From a virus, in the IMG/VR virus record IMGVR_UViG_3300025636_000021, positions 1-29,321 of that record: DNA of 29,321 bases; one strand, 5' to 3'. Positions 13,330 through 28,841 of this stretch are shown here, one piece after another. The first letter of the stretch is position 1; each line of letters opens with the position of its first letter. The notes under the pieces were generated by a model. The model was given only the letters and a program-made list of their open reading frames with translations, made no database searches and had not been told where the DNA came from. The translations under genes and the position numbers were made by a program.

Positions 13330-13360
13330 CTGTTCTCTCAATTTTAAATATTTTGTTAAG

Positions 13361-22240: not shown

Positions 22241-22952
22241 AACCTTTACCTCTCAAATTTCCTCTTAGATATTCATCTACTGTAAAGTTTTCTCTTATAC
22301 TTTTAGGAGAATATGTAGCCAATAATGAAAATACAAATGCGCCATTTACTGGCATTCTAATTGTTTCGTTTGATGTATTAGTGTTTGCTGAACGTAGTTT
22401 TCCTGCAGCAGTCATAACACCATCTTCTACAGGTCTATGTTCTATTTTTTTTAACACATCATAAATTTCGCCTCTGGGATCCCCACCTACTGTTGGATCT
22501 CCAGTCTTTTTATTTTCTATTTCGATATAAGATACATCAGCATCCAAGTTGTATGTAAAATCAGTTAATACAACAGGAACATTTTGAAATATACCGTGTG
22601 CATTAAATCTAAGAACCGGCGGTGGTAATCCTCTATCATTATCCAATTTACCAAATCTCATTTTCATTGAACCTCTAAAAAAGTCTAATGCCTGCAAGAT
22701 ATAATATGCCTGCTCTTCATTCTCAATTAGTATAGGAGCAGTAACGGAAAAAGATGCATTATTTGCAGATTCAAAAAATGATTGTTGAAAGTTAGAATGT
22801 GTTGTAGCCGCTTGTGAATAATTTGCATTTATAATATTAGTAACGGTGGGCGTATACGGAAAGTTAAACTTTCGTATTCCACTCTCTCTCAATCGACCAC
22901 TGGGATCAATGATATTTACAGGTTGCTGGTCCTTGTATGGGTTATACGCCAT
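22233..22952 (-). CDS. gp48: Baseplate tail-tube cap protein, gp48-like
   Basis: A 239-residue protein that fits the T4 gp48 tube-cap family: an alternating SFSVTAPILIENEEQAYYIL strand and helix, LDFFRGSMKMRFG, then GLPPPVLRFNAHG and NVPVVLTDFTYNLDADVSYIEI. gp48 sits on top of the hub and, with gp54, starts tail tube growth. It is shorter than T4 gp48 (about 364 residues). gp54 is related, so it could instead be that partner, but the PPPVLRFNAHG region favours gp48. It is the first gene of its late block, with AGGAG ahead of the ATG and a late promoter about 25 bases upstream. It overlaps gp53 by eight bases. Confidence 0.85.
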   Translation of the reverse strand: MAYNPYKDQQPVNIIDPSGRLRESGIRKFNFPYTPTVTNIINANYSQAATTHSNFQQSFFESANNASFSVTAPILIENEEQAYYILQALDFFRGSMKMRFGKLDNDRGLPPPVLRFNAHGIFQNVPVVLTDFTYNLDADVSYIEIENKKTGDPTVGGDPRGEIYDVLKKIEHRPVEDGVMTAAGKLRSANTNTSNETIRMPVNGAFVFSLLATYSPKSIRENFTVDEYLRGNLRGKGYV

Positions 22953-24978: not shown

Positions 24979-25570
24979 GAGAGTTTTAATAACAGGAAAT
25001 AAAGAATATGGGCTTTGTAAAGAAATATGTAATATTTTTGATACTGTGGATAACATTGATTATTTTACTGCTTCTAGGGTAAATGATTGGGATCTTACTT
25101 CAGCCACAACGCAAAATAAACTAGCAGACTTTTTTATCTCAGAAAATTGTAATGTCTTTATTAACAATTCTGCTATGTGGAAATTTCAACAAACTCTTTT
25201 GGCTGAGACAATGTATAATCGTATTAAGGATGAACAATTGGCTGCCCATTTCATACATATAGGAAGTACAGCAGATACAGGTGTTAAAGGAAGAACTTGG
25301 AGATACCCAACAGAAAAGAAAGCATTGAAAAACTATAACCGAGATTTATCCTATATGGCAATTGGCGGTTCAAATGTAAAAACCACATTGTTATCTCCGG
25401 GTAGTCTAACAACACCAAATGTTATGAAAAAGCACCCAGATAGAAAACTGTTAGACGTTGAATATATCGCAGAGGTCATTTTATGGTTGCTTTCTCAGCC
25501 GGAATATGTTAACATTAATGAAATTTCACTAGATCCTATCCAAGATGGGACATACGCAAGAGAGAGGTAG
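24968..25570 (+). CDS. Short-chain dehydrogenase/reductase-like protein
   Basis: A 200-residue protein with the layout of a short-chain dehydrogenase: an N-terminal strand and cofactor turn VLITGNKEYGL (6-16), where the third Gly of TGxxxGxG is Leu; NNSA at 66-69 in place of NNAG; Ser100 in HIGS; Tyr113 and Lys117 in YPTEK, the YxxxK pair; and SPGSLTTP at 143-150. Catalytic Ser, Tyr and Lys are all present, so it may be an active NAD(P)-dependent oxidoreductase, but the weakened Gly motif leaves the cofactor uncertain. It is short for the family (about 250). It sits between gp47 and gp46, overlapping gp47, which is an odd place for a metabolic enzyme. Substrate unknown. Confidence 0.75.
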   Translation: MDYKRVLITGNKEYGLCKEICNIFDTVDNIDYFTASRVNDWDLTSATTQNKLADFFISENCNVFINNSAMWKFQQTLLAETMYNRIKDEQLAAHFIHIGSTADTGVKGRTWRYPTEKKALKNYNRDLSYMAIGGSNVKTTLLSPGSLTTPNVMKKHPDRKLLDVEYIAEVILWLLSQPEYVNINEISLDPIQDGTYARER

Positions 25571-25577
25571 ATTACTT

Positions 25578-27374
25578 TTGCTAAAGATTAAAAATATTAC
25601 AATCCGAAACTTTATGAGTGTAGGGAATGTTACGCAAGCAATTGATTTAGAACGAGATTCGTTATCTCTAGTTCTAGGAAACAATTTAGACTTAGGCGGA
25701 GATGGTTCACGCAACGGTACAGGTAAGACAACTCTTATCAATGCGTTATCATATGGACTATATGGTAACGCATTAACGAACATCAAAAAGAATAACCTAA
25801 TTAACAAGACTAACGGTAAAGGAATGTTAGTCACTGTTGATTTTGAATATAACGGAAGCGAATATCGCATTGAACGTGGTCGCTCACCTAATGTATTCAG
25901 ATTAAAGCGTGATAATGTTGAAATTAATGAAACTGAAGACGAAGCACAAGGAGAAATGCGCCAAACACAAGTAGAAGTTGATTCTATTATTGGTATTTCT
26001 CATTCTATGTTTAAGCATATTGTAGCTCTTAATACATATACGGAACCATTCCTCAGTATGAGAGCAGGAGATCAACGTGATATCATTGAAGAACTACTAG
26101 GTATCACAGAACTTTCACGCAAGGCAGAATCCTTACGCGATGATGTTAAATCTACCAAAGAACAAATTAAAGATGAAGAGTATCGTCTAAAATCAATTGA
26201 AGATGCAAATGGACGTATTTTAAAATCTATCAAAGATATTGAACGCAGACAACGTGTGTGGTTACAGAAACATGAGACAGACATCAAAGACCTTGAAACA
26301 GGTTTAGATGCATTGTCACATATAGATATCGATAAAGAGATTCAGAATCATGCGTTGATTGCAGAATTCAATGAAAAGAAAATACGCCTAGATGATGCAT
26401 TACGTTGGATGAATAATATTAATACAGACGATGCAAAACAAGAAAAAGTTATTTCTAAACTTAAAAATGAAATTAAATTGCTAAAGGAGCACACATGCTA
26501 TGCTTGTGGACAAGAAATGCATGATGATAAACAAGAAAGCATTCTTGCAGCAAAGGAAGAACAGAAACAAGAATCTAATCTACAACTTCTTGAAAATAAT
26601 GAGAAACTAAAGGAATACGAAAGTATTGTTGCAGAAATCGGTGAAATTGGTAATAAGCCATCAGTATTTTATGAAACACTAAATGATGCATATGAACATC
26701 AAAACTCAGTTAGAATGTTAGAAGAGCAGATTGAACAAAAGAAACTTTTAGACGATCCGTATACAGACCAAATTAATGAAATGAGAGATAGTGCACTTGA
26801 AGAATTAGACTATACTAATATGAATACACTTGTATCATATCGTGAACATCAAGAATTCCTAATGAAACTATTAACAAACAAAGATAGTTTCATTAGAAAA
26901 AAGATTATTGACCAGAATTTAAGTTTTCTAAATACAAGACTACAAACGTATTTGGACAAGTTGGGACTTCCTCATGAAGTACGATTCCAAAGCGATTTAT
27001 CTGTAGAGATTACTGAATTAGGTAGAGACTTAGATTTTGATAATTTATCAAGAGGAGAACGTAATAGACTTATTCTAGGTTTATCATGGGCATTCCGTGA
27101 TATATTCGAATCACTGTATAGCACGATCAATGTATTATTCATTGATGAACTTATTGACAGTGGAATGGACACCAATGGTGTTGAAGCATCACTCGCCGTA
27201 CTAAAGAAAATGGTAAGAGATAGTGGACGTTCACTATTTCTAGTATCCCATAGAGATGAACTTGTGGGTAGAGTTAGTGATGTATTGAATGTAGTTAAAG
27301 AAAACGGGTTCACTACATTTGCACAAGAAACAGAAACACTAGAACCCAGTGTTGAAATAGATATCGTCATATAG
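25578..27374 (+). CDS. gp46: Recombination endonuclease subunit gp46 (Rad50/SbcC-type ATPase)
   Basis: A 598-residue SMC-like ATPase partner of gp47. Walker A is GSRNGTGKTT (43-52, Lys50), followed by two coiled-coil arms around a zinc hook Cys307-Tyr-Ala-Cys310. The ABC signature is LSRGERNRL (490-498), Walker B is LFIDE (520-524) and the H-loop SH is at 557-558. The length is close to T4 gp46 (560). I chose TTG at 25578: AGAGAGG lies about eleven bases upstream and the protein then begins LLKIKNITIRNF, the usual first strand. The frame extends to ATG 25545, which would add eleven residues and overlap the dehydrogenase-like gene. A good TAGGAG site at the end serves the next gene. Confidence 0.94.
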   Translation: MLKIKNITIRNFMSVGNVTQAIDLERDSLSLVLGNNLDLGGDGSRNGTGKTTLINALSYGLYGNALTNIKKNNLINKTNGKGMLVTVDFEYNGSEYRIERGRSPNVFRLKRDNVEINETEDEAQGEMRQTQVEVDSIIGISHSMFKHIVALNTYTEPFLSMRAGDQRDIIEELLGITELSRKAESLRDDVKSTKEQIKDEEYRLKSIEDANGRILKSIKDIERRQRVWLQKHETDIKDLETGLDALSHIDIDKEIQNHALIAEFNEKKIRLDDALRWMNNINTDDAKQEKVISKLKNEIKLLKEHTCYACGQEMHDDKQESILAAKEEQKQESNLQLLENNEKLKEYESIVAEIGEIGNKPSVFYETLNDAYEHQNSVRMLEEQIEQKKLLDDPYTDQINEMRDSALEELDYTNMNTLVSYREHQEFLMKLLTNKDSFIRKKIIDQNLSFLNTRLQTYLDKLGLPHEVRFQSDLSVEITELGRDLDFDNLSRGERNRLILGLSWAFRDIFESLYSTINVLFIDELIDSGMDTNGVEASLAVLKKMVRDSGRSLFLVSHRDELVGRVSDVLNVVKENGFTTFAQETETLEPSVEIDIVI

Positions 27375-27383
27375 GAGAAAATA

Positions 27384-27560
27384 ATGACAAATCATGATCA
27401 AATTTTAGAACAAATTGAAGTATATATTAAAGAACATGCATCGTTTGAAGAAAAGGGAGTAAAAGCAGCAGCCGCAAGGGCTCGTAAAGCACTAGGAGAT
27501 ATCGGTAAACTAACCAAGGCACGCCGCGCAGAAATTCAAGAAAAGAAAAATAATATGTAA
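27384..27560 (+). CDS. Small basic Hc1 histone-like protein
   Basis: A 58-residue ORF (MTNHDQILEQIEVYIKEHAS...) preceded by TAGGAG, nine bases after the gp46 stop. Residues about 24-52 contain KGVKAAAARARKALGDIGK and TKARRAEIQEKK, an Ala/Lys/Arg helix pattern like the histone H1-like Hc1 family. Such small proteins occur in T4-like marine phages. It could bind or compact DNA, perhaps helping the gp46/47 complex or closing down the host nucleoid; both are guesses. The acidic N-terminal third is unlike Hc1. It ends eight bases before the promoter of the candidate small RNA. Confidence 0.75.
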   Translation: MTNHDQILEQIEVYIKEHASFEEKGVKAAAARARKALGDIGKLTKARRAEIQEKKNNM

Positions 27561-27567
27561 AAAAAAC

Positions 27568-27596
27568 TTGACATACTAATAATAGTATGCTAGTAT
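27568..27596 (+). promoter_or_regulatory. Promoter with internal palindromic operator, ahead of the small RNA
   Basis: TTGACA at 27568-27573 is followed after 17 bases by TAGTAT at 27591-27596. The spacer carries a perfect inverted repeat, CATACTA-ATAA-TAGTATG (27572-27589), exactly where a repressor would block polymerase. No ORF of note follows before the terminator at 27687, so it should drive the candidate RNA. Confidence 0.6.
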
Positions 27597-27603
27597 ATAA
27601 CTA

Positions 27604-27715
27604 TAACATAAAAAGATAGATTGTTACCCTCTCAACTCTCATTACAACTACTTTTTATGCTATTCCCTATATCATAGGGAAAGAAGACCCAGTGCAGTAA
27701 TGTGCTGGGTTTTTT
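27604..27715 (+). ncRNA. Candidate small regulatory RNA
   Basis: A ~110-nt transcript is predicted between the promoter at 27568 and the terminator at 27687. No start codon with a ribosome site lies in it. Its predicted parts are: an outer stem CATAAAAAG (27607-27615) with CTTTTTATG (27651-27659), closing a pyrimidine-rich open loop of 35 bases; a perfect 8-bp hairpin TTCCCTAT-ATC-ATAGGGAA (27663-27681); and the terminator hairpin. The loop piece TTACCCTCTCAA (27624-27635) is complementary to the gp53 ribosome site (11 pairs, one bulge), and its CTCTCAA to the gp25 site. A role in blocking baseplate translation is inference. Confidence 0.5.
27687..27715 (+). terminator. Intrinsic terminator of the small RNA / gp55 unit
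   Basis: ACCCAG at 27687-27692 pairs with CTGGGT at 27705-27710; four further pairs (two G-U) close a GTAA tetraloop, and six T follow at 27710-27715. It would end both the small RNA and read-through from the upstream genes. Confidence 0.85.
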
Positions 27716-27717
27716 AA

Positions 27718-27753
27718 TTGACAAACTCTAGATATTTTGTTATGATAAATATA
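27718..27753 (+). promoter_or_regulatory. Promoter for the 62-residue gene and membrane protein, with late-type box
   Basis: TTGACA at 27718-27723, 17 bases, then TATGAT at 27741-27746 form a good sigma70 promoter directly after the terminator. GATAAATA at 27744-27751 overlaps it and resembles the late promoters, so the genes may be read both early and late. CAGGAG follows before the ATG at 27779. Confidence 0.65.
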
Positions 27754-27778
27754 CTATAATAACAAACAGGAGATTTTT

Positions 27779-27967
27779 ATGAGTATCACACGGCAACCTA
27801 CCGAGAAGTCAACAAAAGATCGCAATGATGCAGAAATGGCAGTACAAGAGTTTTTGAAGAAGGGTGGAAAAATAGAATCTATTCCTGAAGGGTTAGGCAC
27901 TGATGCAGCAGATATGAAGTATAAATTTAGAAAGCCACCAAAAAGAAAAATTCCAAAAGAAGACTAA
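27779..27967 (+). CDS. Small basic protein, unknown
   Basis: A 62-residue protein that I do not place in a family. It has a charged N terminus, a helix near residues 14-30 (RNDAEMAVQEFLKKGGK), and a basic C-terminal tail (KFRKPPKRKIPKED). The Gly-Gly-Lys after the helix and the basic end could suit nucleic acid binding, but there is no firm motif. A CAGGAG ribosome site lies about seven bases upstream. Its stop overlaps the start of the next gene (TAATG), so the two are coupled. Confidence 0.8.
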   Translation: MSITRQPTEKSTKDRNDAEMAVQEFLKKGGKIESIPEGLGTDAADMKYKFRKPPKRKIPKED

Positions 27968-28299
27968 TGGAATTCATACTTAAATCAATAATTGGTGGTA
28001 TTATTATCGCCAGTGTAGTCACTGTAGCTCAGCGTGGTAATCCTACGTTGGGCGCTTTGATTCTGGGTATACCTTTAACTAGCGTGGTTAGTATTCTCTT
28101 TATGTACTATTCTGGCGTTGATGTTGCAGTATTTTCACAATTAGCAAAAGAGACAATTATATTTGTCTTAGTGAGTTTAGTATTCTTTCCATTATTTGTA
28201 TTTCTAGTTAAAAATATTCAATTCTTACCTGCATTGTCTATCAGCCTAATTGCAACTATGGCTTGTTTGTATATCTCAAAGATTTATCTAGAAAGTTAG
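27967..28299 (+). CDS. Four-helix membrane protein, DUF3147-like
   Basis: A 110-residue, strongly hydrophobic protein with four likely membrane helices at about residues 2-20, 28-48, 63-81 and 86-106. A short polar turn after the first helix (AQRGNPTLGALILGIPLTS) recalls the DUF3147 family of small inner-membrane proteins, for which no function is known. The size is right for the family. A holin-like role cannot be excluded, but the helix number and the conserved Pro-rich turn favour DUF3147. It starts on the last base of the previous stop and overlaps the converging nuclease gene by four bases. Confidence 0.8.
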   Translation: MEFILKSIIGGIIIASVVTVAQRGNPTLGALILGIPLTSVVSILFMYYSGVDVAVFSQLAKETIIFVLVSLVFFPLFVFLVKNIQFLPALSISLIATMACLYISKIYLES

Positions 28300-28841
28300 T
28301 AAAAAGAATTTTTGTCAAATCCATTGACACATGCATCTTTGATCTTATCTGTATTCTTCATCCAAAATGGATCCCATGCCGCAAAAATCCATTTACCGTG
28401 CTTTGCACTATCATATATTGTATAGTTAGTTGTTGTGAATCCAGCCTGATACATATGTTCCGGATAACAAATAAATTGACCTTTACGAGTAATTTTAATA
28501 AACATAATATTAACATCGTTATCTTCAGCAACATCAAGACATTGGTCAATCCATTCTTCTAATATCGGTATGTGCTTATCCATAAAAAAGTGGTGAAATG
28601 TAAAGTCTGCATAATTCTTGCACTCACAATTGAAATACTTCCAATCATCGGGTGGAATAATATCTCCCTTAAAACTACGAACTTGGCCTTCACTAAGATG
28701 CTGCGCACGATGGAAGTTACTACCACCGATATACGCACCACTATTGGGAACACGTACAAAACTATCACCATATTTCTCACTTAGAAATTTAGCTACATCA
28801 CGTTCATAACTACTTCCTTTTGTTTTACTTTTACTAGCCAT
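28296..28841 (-). CDS. PD-(D/E)XK nuclease, Holliday-junction-resolvase-like
   Basis: A 181-residue protein with the layout of a small PD-(D/E)XK nuclease: Glu13 in SSYERDVAKFLSEKYG (first helix), Asp60 in FKGDIIPP, and Glu73-x-Lys75 in NCECKNY, followed by aromatic-rich strands. The N-terminal KGSSYERDVAKFL resembles archaeal-type Hjc resolvases and related phage enzymes. It could resolve branched DNA before packaging or cut foreign DNA; T4 uses gp49, which is unrelated, for the former. It is alone on the minus strand, facing the plus-strand unit. Only a weak ribosome site (GGACAG) precedes the ATG. A perfect inverted repeat lies 23 bases upstream. Confidence 0.82.
   Translation of the reverse strand: MASKSKTKGSSYERDVAKFLSEKYGDSFVRVPNSGAYIGGSNFHRAQHLSEGQVRSFKGDIIPPDDWKYFNCECKNYADFTFHHFFMDKHIPILEEWIDQCLDVAEDNDVNIMFIKITRKGQFICYPEHMYQAGFTTTNYTIYDSAKHGKWIFAAWDPFWMKNTDKIKDACVNGFDKNSFY

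Follow-up and report, generated by a model that had tools for sequence, protein, structure and literature searches.

A conserved gene for a predicted structured small RNA with a nearly constant pyrimidine-rich loop downstream of gp46 in large marine phages

The window, by which we mean the whole stretch of DNA that was analysed, is a viral record of 29,321 bp. Its genes are T4-like and include those for baseplate proteins, a late sigma factor and members of the SbcD and SbcC families. The nearest cultured relatives of its gp46 DNA are Pseudomonas phages, for example PA5oct, with ~66% identity over about one quarter of the 1.8-kb query. On the plus strand no ORF of at least 40 aa occurs between positions 27560 and 27779. 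The features of this interval and its flanks are as follows.

25545–27374, + strand: gp46 / SbcC-like recombination endonuclease subunit, the syntenic anchor (gp46 searches)
27384–27560, + strand: 58-aa Hc1-like (histone H1-like) gene just upstream of the RNA, profile match to PF07432 above cutoff
27568–27596, + strand: sigma-70-type promoter, TTGACA-17 nt-TAGTAT with TG before the -10 hexamer (sequence check; same place in relatives)
27572–27589, no strand: palindrome CATACTA-ATAA-TAGTATG in the promoter spacer, exact, sequence not conserved, putative operator
27603–27716, + strand: predicted small RNA of ~114 nt, 5' end placed ~7 nt past the -10 hexamer (fold z -6.4, covariation)
27607–27624, + strand: 5' arm of P1, the long closing stem of 16 pairs with two bulged A's (fold, covariation)
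27625–27643, + strand: open pyrimidine-rich loop TACCCTCTCAACTCTCATT (19 nt), the counterpart of the nearly constant TGTCTCCTCTNAACCTCTCTCA in relatives (fold, relatives' sequences)
27644–27659, + strand: 3' arm of P1 (fold, covariation)
27663–27681, + strand: P2 hairpin of 8 bp, with compensatory changes at two pairs in the window's lineage (fold, covariation)
27688–27715, + strand: intrinsic terminator with GTAA loop and T6 tract (fold, covariation in group A)
27718–27752, + strand: separate promoter of the next gene, TTGACA/TATGAT, overlapping the presumed late motif ATAAATAT (sequence)
27779–27967, + strand: 62-aa downstream gene, lying outside the RNA; most group C members have a different gene here (weak SutA similarity)

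The -35 hexamer TTGACA (27568–27573) and the -10 hexamer TAGTAT (27591–27596) are separated by 17 nt, and the perfect spacer palindrome noted in the preliminary description of this DNA is exact on a sequence check. Promoter-like matches between 17000 and 29321 number 60 against 60.9 expected, which is chance level by themselves, and a simple terminator scan missed the terminator, which is visible in the fold and in the relatives. It is conservation that carries the case, and a TTGAC-type promoter occupies the matching place in each of the 46 family contexts that the loop pattern yielded. The promoter had also been called repressible. In favour of this, each of the five distinct promoters of group A, the lineage of the window, carries a dyad of 7–9 bp; however, these are two different sequences at different positions, and most of the 52 distinct family promoters have no notable dyad. 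The 7-bp dyad of the window is equalled by 21 of 300 shuffles and is no more than expected by chance alone. Dyads of 8 bp or more occur in four of the 52 (L003, L004, L005 and L012), each matched by 0–2 of 300 shuffles. A conserved operator in the spacer was rejected because the sequence and position of the dyad vary among the relatives.

The predicted RNA of the window folds with -39.8 kcal/mol (z = -6.4), and none of 200 dinucleotide shuffles is equally stable; the folds of the window and nine relatives have z scores of -4.0 to -8.4. P1 is composed of 9 + 3 + 4 pairs with the two bulged A's, and the long stem, 8-bp hairpin and GTAA-capped terminator proposed at the outset all appear in the fold. 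With its own promoter, an intrinsic terminator and no ORF, the locus has the composition of a stand-alone bacterial-type sRNA gene, and the proposal that it encodes a phage small RNA is strongly supported by the interval devoid of ORFs and by conservation across a family.

Relatives were collected by a gp46 search of viral contigs, from which the best 80 of 593 loci, many of them near copies of one another, were taken without reference to the loop. The sequence following gp46 was inspected for 40 of the 80, and the later loop count covered all of them. The family loop lies within 3.2 kb downstream of gp46 in 49 of the 80 loci, 35 of which have exactly TCTCCTCTNAACCTCTC, six the window type, four a TC insertion and three a loop one base shorter; the remaining locus is L017. 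The 31 loci without the loop comprise five with at most 352 nt after gp46 and 26 with at least 1,005 nt and a gp46 identity of 64% or less. Hence, among these best 80 loci, the family loop is present in every one whose gp46 reaches 69% identity and which has more than 352 nt of downstream sequence, and the more distant phages (gp46 ≤64%) are without it by the patterns used. A pattern scan with TCTCCTCTNAACCTCTC matched 91 stretches. Among its 53 distinct contexts 46 belong to the family and seven are seemingly unrelated (L108, L125, L126, L130, L141, L154 and L157); since the 46 were picked by the loop pattern their loop identity is by construction, and the unselected count is the 49 of 80. 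The window loop TTACCCTCTCAACTCTC matched ten stretches, seven of them syntenic and three (L086, L088 and L090) in unrelated sequence, and the longer pattern TGTCTCCTCTNAACCTCTC had no exact match in a collection of bacterial and archaeal genomes. Each of the 13 matching records among 18 examined has exactly one copy. Many large marine phages carry a small folded-RNA gene just after a DNA-repair gene.

The set of distinct RNAs was limited to copies with TTGAC upstream and TTTT downstream, and removal by hand of L126 and L130 as unrelated left 58. These fall into three groups, with L017 further divergent. Group A (the window, L002–L007 and L089) has the loop TTACCCTCT[C/T]AACTCTCATTAC, group B has GTGTCTCCTCTCAACCTCTCTCA and variants, and group C mostly has [A/T]TGTCTCCTCTAAACCTCTCTCATC; group A retains the two-tract design of the loop with its letters changed. 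The lineage of the window is a divergent branch. What ties it to the rest of the family is its identical position and architecture, together with the loop letters CCTCTCAAC..TCTCAT that it shares, and no significant model score: the covariance model R1, built from 11 group B sequences, found group B and C members down to E ~1e-3 and gave the window 17.9 bits with E 0.38, and model R2 gave it no match up to E 5. Antisense matches of R1 (E 0.018 and above) are, we think, a product of stem symmetry. A search with R2 of 18 records, among which were PA5oct and two single-cell phage records of marine origin, yielded no match, which excludes only the B/C form; R2 missed G003 and G004 too, though both carry the group A form.

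Seventeen group C RNAs (L035 at 2310–2412, L033, L036, L039, L040, L042–L044, L095, L096, L099, L100, L106, L110, L140, L160 and L170) share a further block that hardly varies, GGTGGGTTAGACC(T)TTAACGTACCACC..TAAAAAGCACAAAAAGG with some variants. Read by eye, this block looks like a hairpin with an A-rich strand and perhaps a pseudoknot, in which the loop CCTT would pair with AAGG. For L035, Rfam gave no match close to threshold.

Alignment of whole RNAs with MAFFT gave no consensus structure and misaligned P1, and the structure was then modelled from a subset. The covariation alignment was drawn from 48 selected sources, roughly one for each distinct sequence, and excluded group A and L017, whose scores were too low. 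Double changes occur at all 11 P1 pairs of these 48 aligned matches (42 distinct), in 114 cells compared with 33.1 in shuffles, a number reached by none of 500. The fraction of P1 cells that pair is 91.9% against 65.7% when shuffled and 29–51% when the partner is slid; pair counts lean to the structure that is given, and the slid controls are the safeguard. Compensatory changes in a conserved stem, the hallmark of a structured non-coding RNA, are thus present in the related phages. Within the eight group A sequences 14 of 16 P1 pairs are invariant. Their hairpin and terminator have double changes at four pairs, in 11 cells compared with 3.8 in shuffles (0 of 500), a result to be read with the four pairs as such being reached by 114 of 500 shuffles and the pair types by 498 of 500. 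The sequence comparisons argue that the RNA structure is under selection.

The address of the gene is nearly fixed. gp46 lies 24 to 3,089 nt upstream of the RNA in 54 of 59 copies, and four of the remaining five have at most 882 nt of upstream sequence; the fifth, L112, has 2,286 nt. The Hc1-like gene is upstream in 45 of the 59 copies, at 9–32 nt in 31 and at 617–2,888 nt in 14, and was not found upstream in the other 14, some of which have little sequence. A relative also occurs beside other genes in two marine single-cell phage records. On the downstream side the groups differ. In groups A and B, except L024, the next gene encodes a related protein of 57–66 aa, whereas in most of group C it encodes an unrelated membrane protein of 80–88 aa, often behind a late-type motif. 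Since the downstream gene differs between groups, the RNA is independent of it. This bears on the alternative that the RNA is a cis-acting leader or attenuator controlling the next gene by read-through of the terminator. Many group B next genes do start only 11–24 nt past the terminator with no TTGAC between, as such a leader would have it. The family nonetheless does not share one downstream gene, group A, L017, L024 and L134 have a TTGAC promoter just past the terminator, and motifs of the CTAAATA type, as in late promoters, occur there in most of group C, so that a cis-acting role is improbable. In the window the promoter of the next gene overlaps ATAAATAT, which we take to be a late motif of the T4 type.

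A second alternative is that the loop is translated, as the tiny ORF NTG-TCT-CCT-CTN-AAC-CTC-TCT-CA(T/A) with the peptide (M/V/L)SPLNLS(H/Q). ATG, GTG or TTG precedes TCT in 46 of the 58 distinct sequences, whose agreement with the exact pattern follows from the way they were searched for, and the sole inner variable base falls on a Leu wobble position. However, indels break the frame in L016, L018, L019 and L020, the end is altered in L024, the eight group A sequences have TAC at the codon in question, and the peptides would range from 10 to 32 aa. The remaining wobble positions are invariant and no clear Shine-Dalgarno (SD) sequence precedes the frame. The peptide was rejected on the broken frame, the TAC of group A and the fixed wobble positions, and we consider it extremely unlikely.

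The letters of the loop are complementary to purine runs of the SD type, and as an exposed pyrimidine-rich loop it resembles an anti-SD element. Its pairing was examined with phage leaders in nine records and then in seven more, where leader starts came from a simple ORF caller and some are wrong. Over these phage leaders, pairing with ribosome-binding sites does not exceed chance. In each of the nine records 58 to 147 of 150 dinucleotide-shuffled loops equal the mean pairing energy of the real loop, and exact leader matches in five records show no clear excess, the best being two at 11 nt, which 27 of 300 shuffles reach. In 168 clusters of ortholog leaders from 12 group B and C genomes the best Z of -2.74 compares with a median best of -2.82 for shuffled loops, and the late clusters are no better, being equalled by 98 of 160 shuffles. 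The idea that phage genes in general are subject to an anti-SD effect was rejected since mean energies and exact matches are no better than for shuffled loops. Beyond the leaders, 1.93 Mb of relatives contain no exact complement longer than 13 nt in phage RNA apart from the gene's own antisense, and for pairing with E. coli 16S or 23S rRNA 17 to 50 of 60 shuffles do as well.

A difference between late and other leaders is seen at 8 nt, with loop matches in 10 of 132 compared with 16 of 872, then in 11 of 104 compared with 25 of 697. The late matches are mostly AGGAGACA and TTGAGAGAGAA; the former, for example, precedes a 199-aa protein that we take for the tail tube. In group B and C genomes the B loop matches 21 of 236 late leaders against 40 of 1,569 others, and the A loop 2 of 236 against 16 of 1,569, so the excess with the B loop and not with the A loop favours specificity. 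When near-identical leaders are removed, however, 13 of 176 late leaders match compared with 7.5 expected, 69 of 1000 shuffles reach this number, and no excess is seen with matches of 7 or 9 nt. In group A genomes, which lack it, the B loop likewise finds matches in late leaders (2 of 22 compared with 2 of 141, at 8 nt). Because the excess weakens without redundancy and appears in genomes without the B loop, a specific late-gene effect was not accepted, and late genes are neither claimed nor excluded as targets.

According to the preliminary description, the RNA restrains translation of the baseplate genes gp53 and gp25 until a switch, under a repressible promoter. The complementarity on which this was built is present in the window: CCTCTCAA of the loop is complementary to TTGAGAGG at 22249 in the gp53 leader, and CTCTCAA to TTGAGAG at 13335 in the gp25 leader, TTGAGAG having four occurrences in the window in addition to the antisense of the RNA itself. 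Both matches are kept in the group A relatives, where among the leaders ordered by z gp25 is 5th and gp53 6th of 107 in G003, gp25 is 6th of 79 in G004, and the rank given for these genes in G005 is 9 of 53. The model could also draw on the 7–9 bp dyads of the five distinct group A promoters and on GAGAGA, which is commoner in late leaders than in others (7.8% compared with 2.9%). Yet the z scores of gp53 and gp25 in the group A relatives are just -0.8 to -1.2, the window gp53 has z -0.84 and rank 8 of 31, and the window gp25 has rank 18 of 31, where the ORF caller took an internal start. The matches are absent from groups B and C, in which no ortholog cluster stands out, so that the complementarity is not conserved with the loop across the family. 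TTGAGAGG before gp53 occurs in the window lineage only and overlaps codons for LRGKGYV, and the other gp53 leaders compared have TTGAAAGG or similar, none of them TTGAGAGG. In L003 the loop reads CCTCTTAA and yet the gp53 leader is still TTGAGAGG; the leader has not followed the loop. With pairing to these two genes no more than expected by chance, shuffled loops doing as well across the 168 ortholog leader sets, and the dyad conserved neither in sequence nor in position, baseplate mRNAs are not favoured as targets and the model as a whole is very improbable.

The reading that we tentatively prefer, at somewhat below an even chance, is a stand-alone phage sRNA transcribed early by the host RNA polymerase whose exposed loop pairs in trans with ribosome-binding sites. 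Early transcription would follow from the sigma-70-type promoter. The covarying P1 stem presents the open pyrimidine-rich loop, which would pair with purine-rich ribosome-binding sites on a small number of mRNAs, of phage, host or both, and block ribosome entry, presumably as loops of this kind usually do. From its sequence features, the gene appears to stand alone and to encode a conserved and structured RNA whose open, two-part pyrimidine loop is nearly constant, and its product is probably a regulator made early in infection. The strong covariation, the fixed address and the near constancy of the loop beside proteins that have diverged to ~70% identity suggest that the RNA is probably important to infection.

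Pairing with ribosome-binding sites is the likeliest mode of action and a bound protein its main rival. The loop is so constant, and yet no RNA partner was found in phages or E. coli rRNA, that a protein partner must be taken seriously. The RNA would then be a decoy or ligand for a host or phage protein that binds two pyrimidine tracts separated by AA, with no base pairing involved; Rho, ribosomal protein S1 and cold-shock proteins, which have pyrimidine-tract binding preferences, are examples. The near constancy of the loop in loci that were not chosen by it (35 of 49 exact), the failure of any phage or E. coli rRNA partner to beat shuffles, a composition poor in G and rich in pyrimidine-C steps, and the two-tract design kept in group A with changed letters all agree with a decoy. 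A protein that reads composition should, however, tolerate more sequence change, and we regard the decoy as possible but rather unlikely. More speculatively, and with a low probability, these RNAs might be a hitherto undescribed phage family in which the freely evolving stem presents a frozen two-tract loop to one conserved cellular partner, be it a host protein that binds RNA or terminates transcription or an RNA of the host; the RNA would then be a weapon against a core host process instead of a regulator of the phage's own late genes. Were it such a weapon, the loop would have been retuned in the window lineage, as expected with a changed host or partner. The loop is a precise bait, the 114-nt gene a precise genetic target, and the RNAs a potential Rfam-type family with a clear seed alignment. 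To our knowledge, little charting has been done of conserved non-coding RNAs in large lytic phages.

Comparison with Rfam gave no match reaching a gathering score in positions 26800–28600 of the window or in ten relatives (0 matches). SdsR/RyeB (RF00111) has a full-length match to positions 27622–27718 of 22.9 bits, E 0.31, below its gathering score of 38, and identity with this or any other Rfam family was rejected on such scores. Two family members compared by BLAST with INPHARED phages gave short, chance-like matches only, and no cultured phage with this RNA was found by that comparison or by R2 over the 18 records, the latter for the B/C form only. No published description of such a phage RNA was found in the mostly open-access literature searched. 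Rfam-known RNAs have been reported in a cyanophage (PMC9964418).

Among the known classes of RNA, phage-encoded trans-acting sRNAs come mostly from temperate phages and prophages. The present RNAs are likewise short, structured and non-coding with their own promoter and terminator, but their family belongs to T4-like phages with a relation to jumbo phages, is fixed beside gp46, and combines a covarying closing stem with a loop that is nearly constant. Anti-SD sRNAs with C-rich loops include RsaE of staphylococci and the CcsR/cuckoo RNAs of alphaproteobacteria. They share with the phage RNA an exposed pyrimidine-rich loop complementary to SD sequences, whereas here SD pairing is not above that of shuffled loops; we know of no sequence relation between them. 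IhtA of Chlamydia is reported to repress the histone-like HctA, its target being hctA, and here too an sRNA is linked to an Hc1-like gene (27384–27560, PF07432), one which was not found upstream in 14 of the 59 copies.

The 62-aa protein encoded downstream has weak similarity to the RNAP-binding domain of SutA (PF20661, E 5e-5) and also resembles the small proteins of the PFL_1563 family (E 1.1e-5), both below cutoff, and may be a phage RNAP-binding protein. It is followed at 27967–28299 by a 110-aa membrane-like protein resembling hypothetical proteins of PRK09272 (E 6e-17, short of the curated cutoff) and at 28296–28841, on the minus strand, by a phage PDDEXK endonuclease (PF24608, E 1.3e-28; RusA-like in PHROGs). 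In contig pieces L203–L213 and L246–L280 (G006, G007, G008, G010 and G017), several genes with TTGACA promoters have in common a short leader that carries ATAATCAA..AGAGAGG ahead of the start codon and has the look of one shared by early genes.
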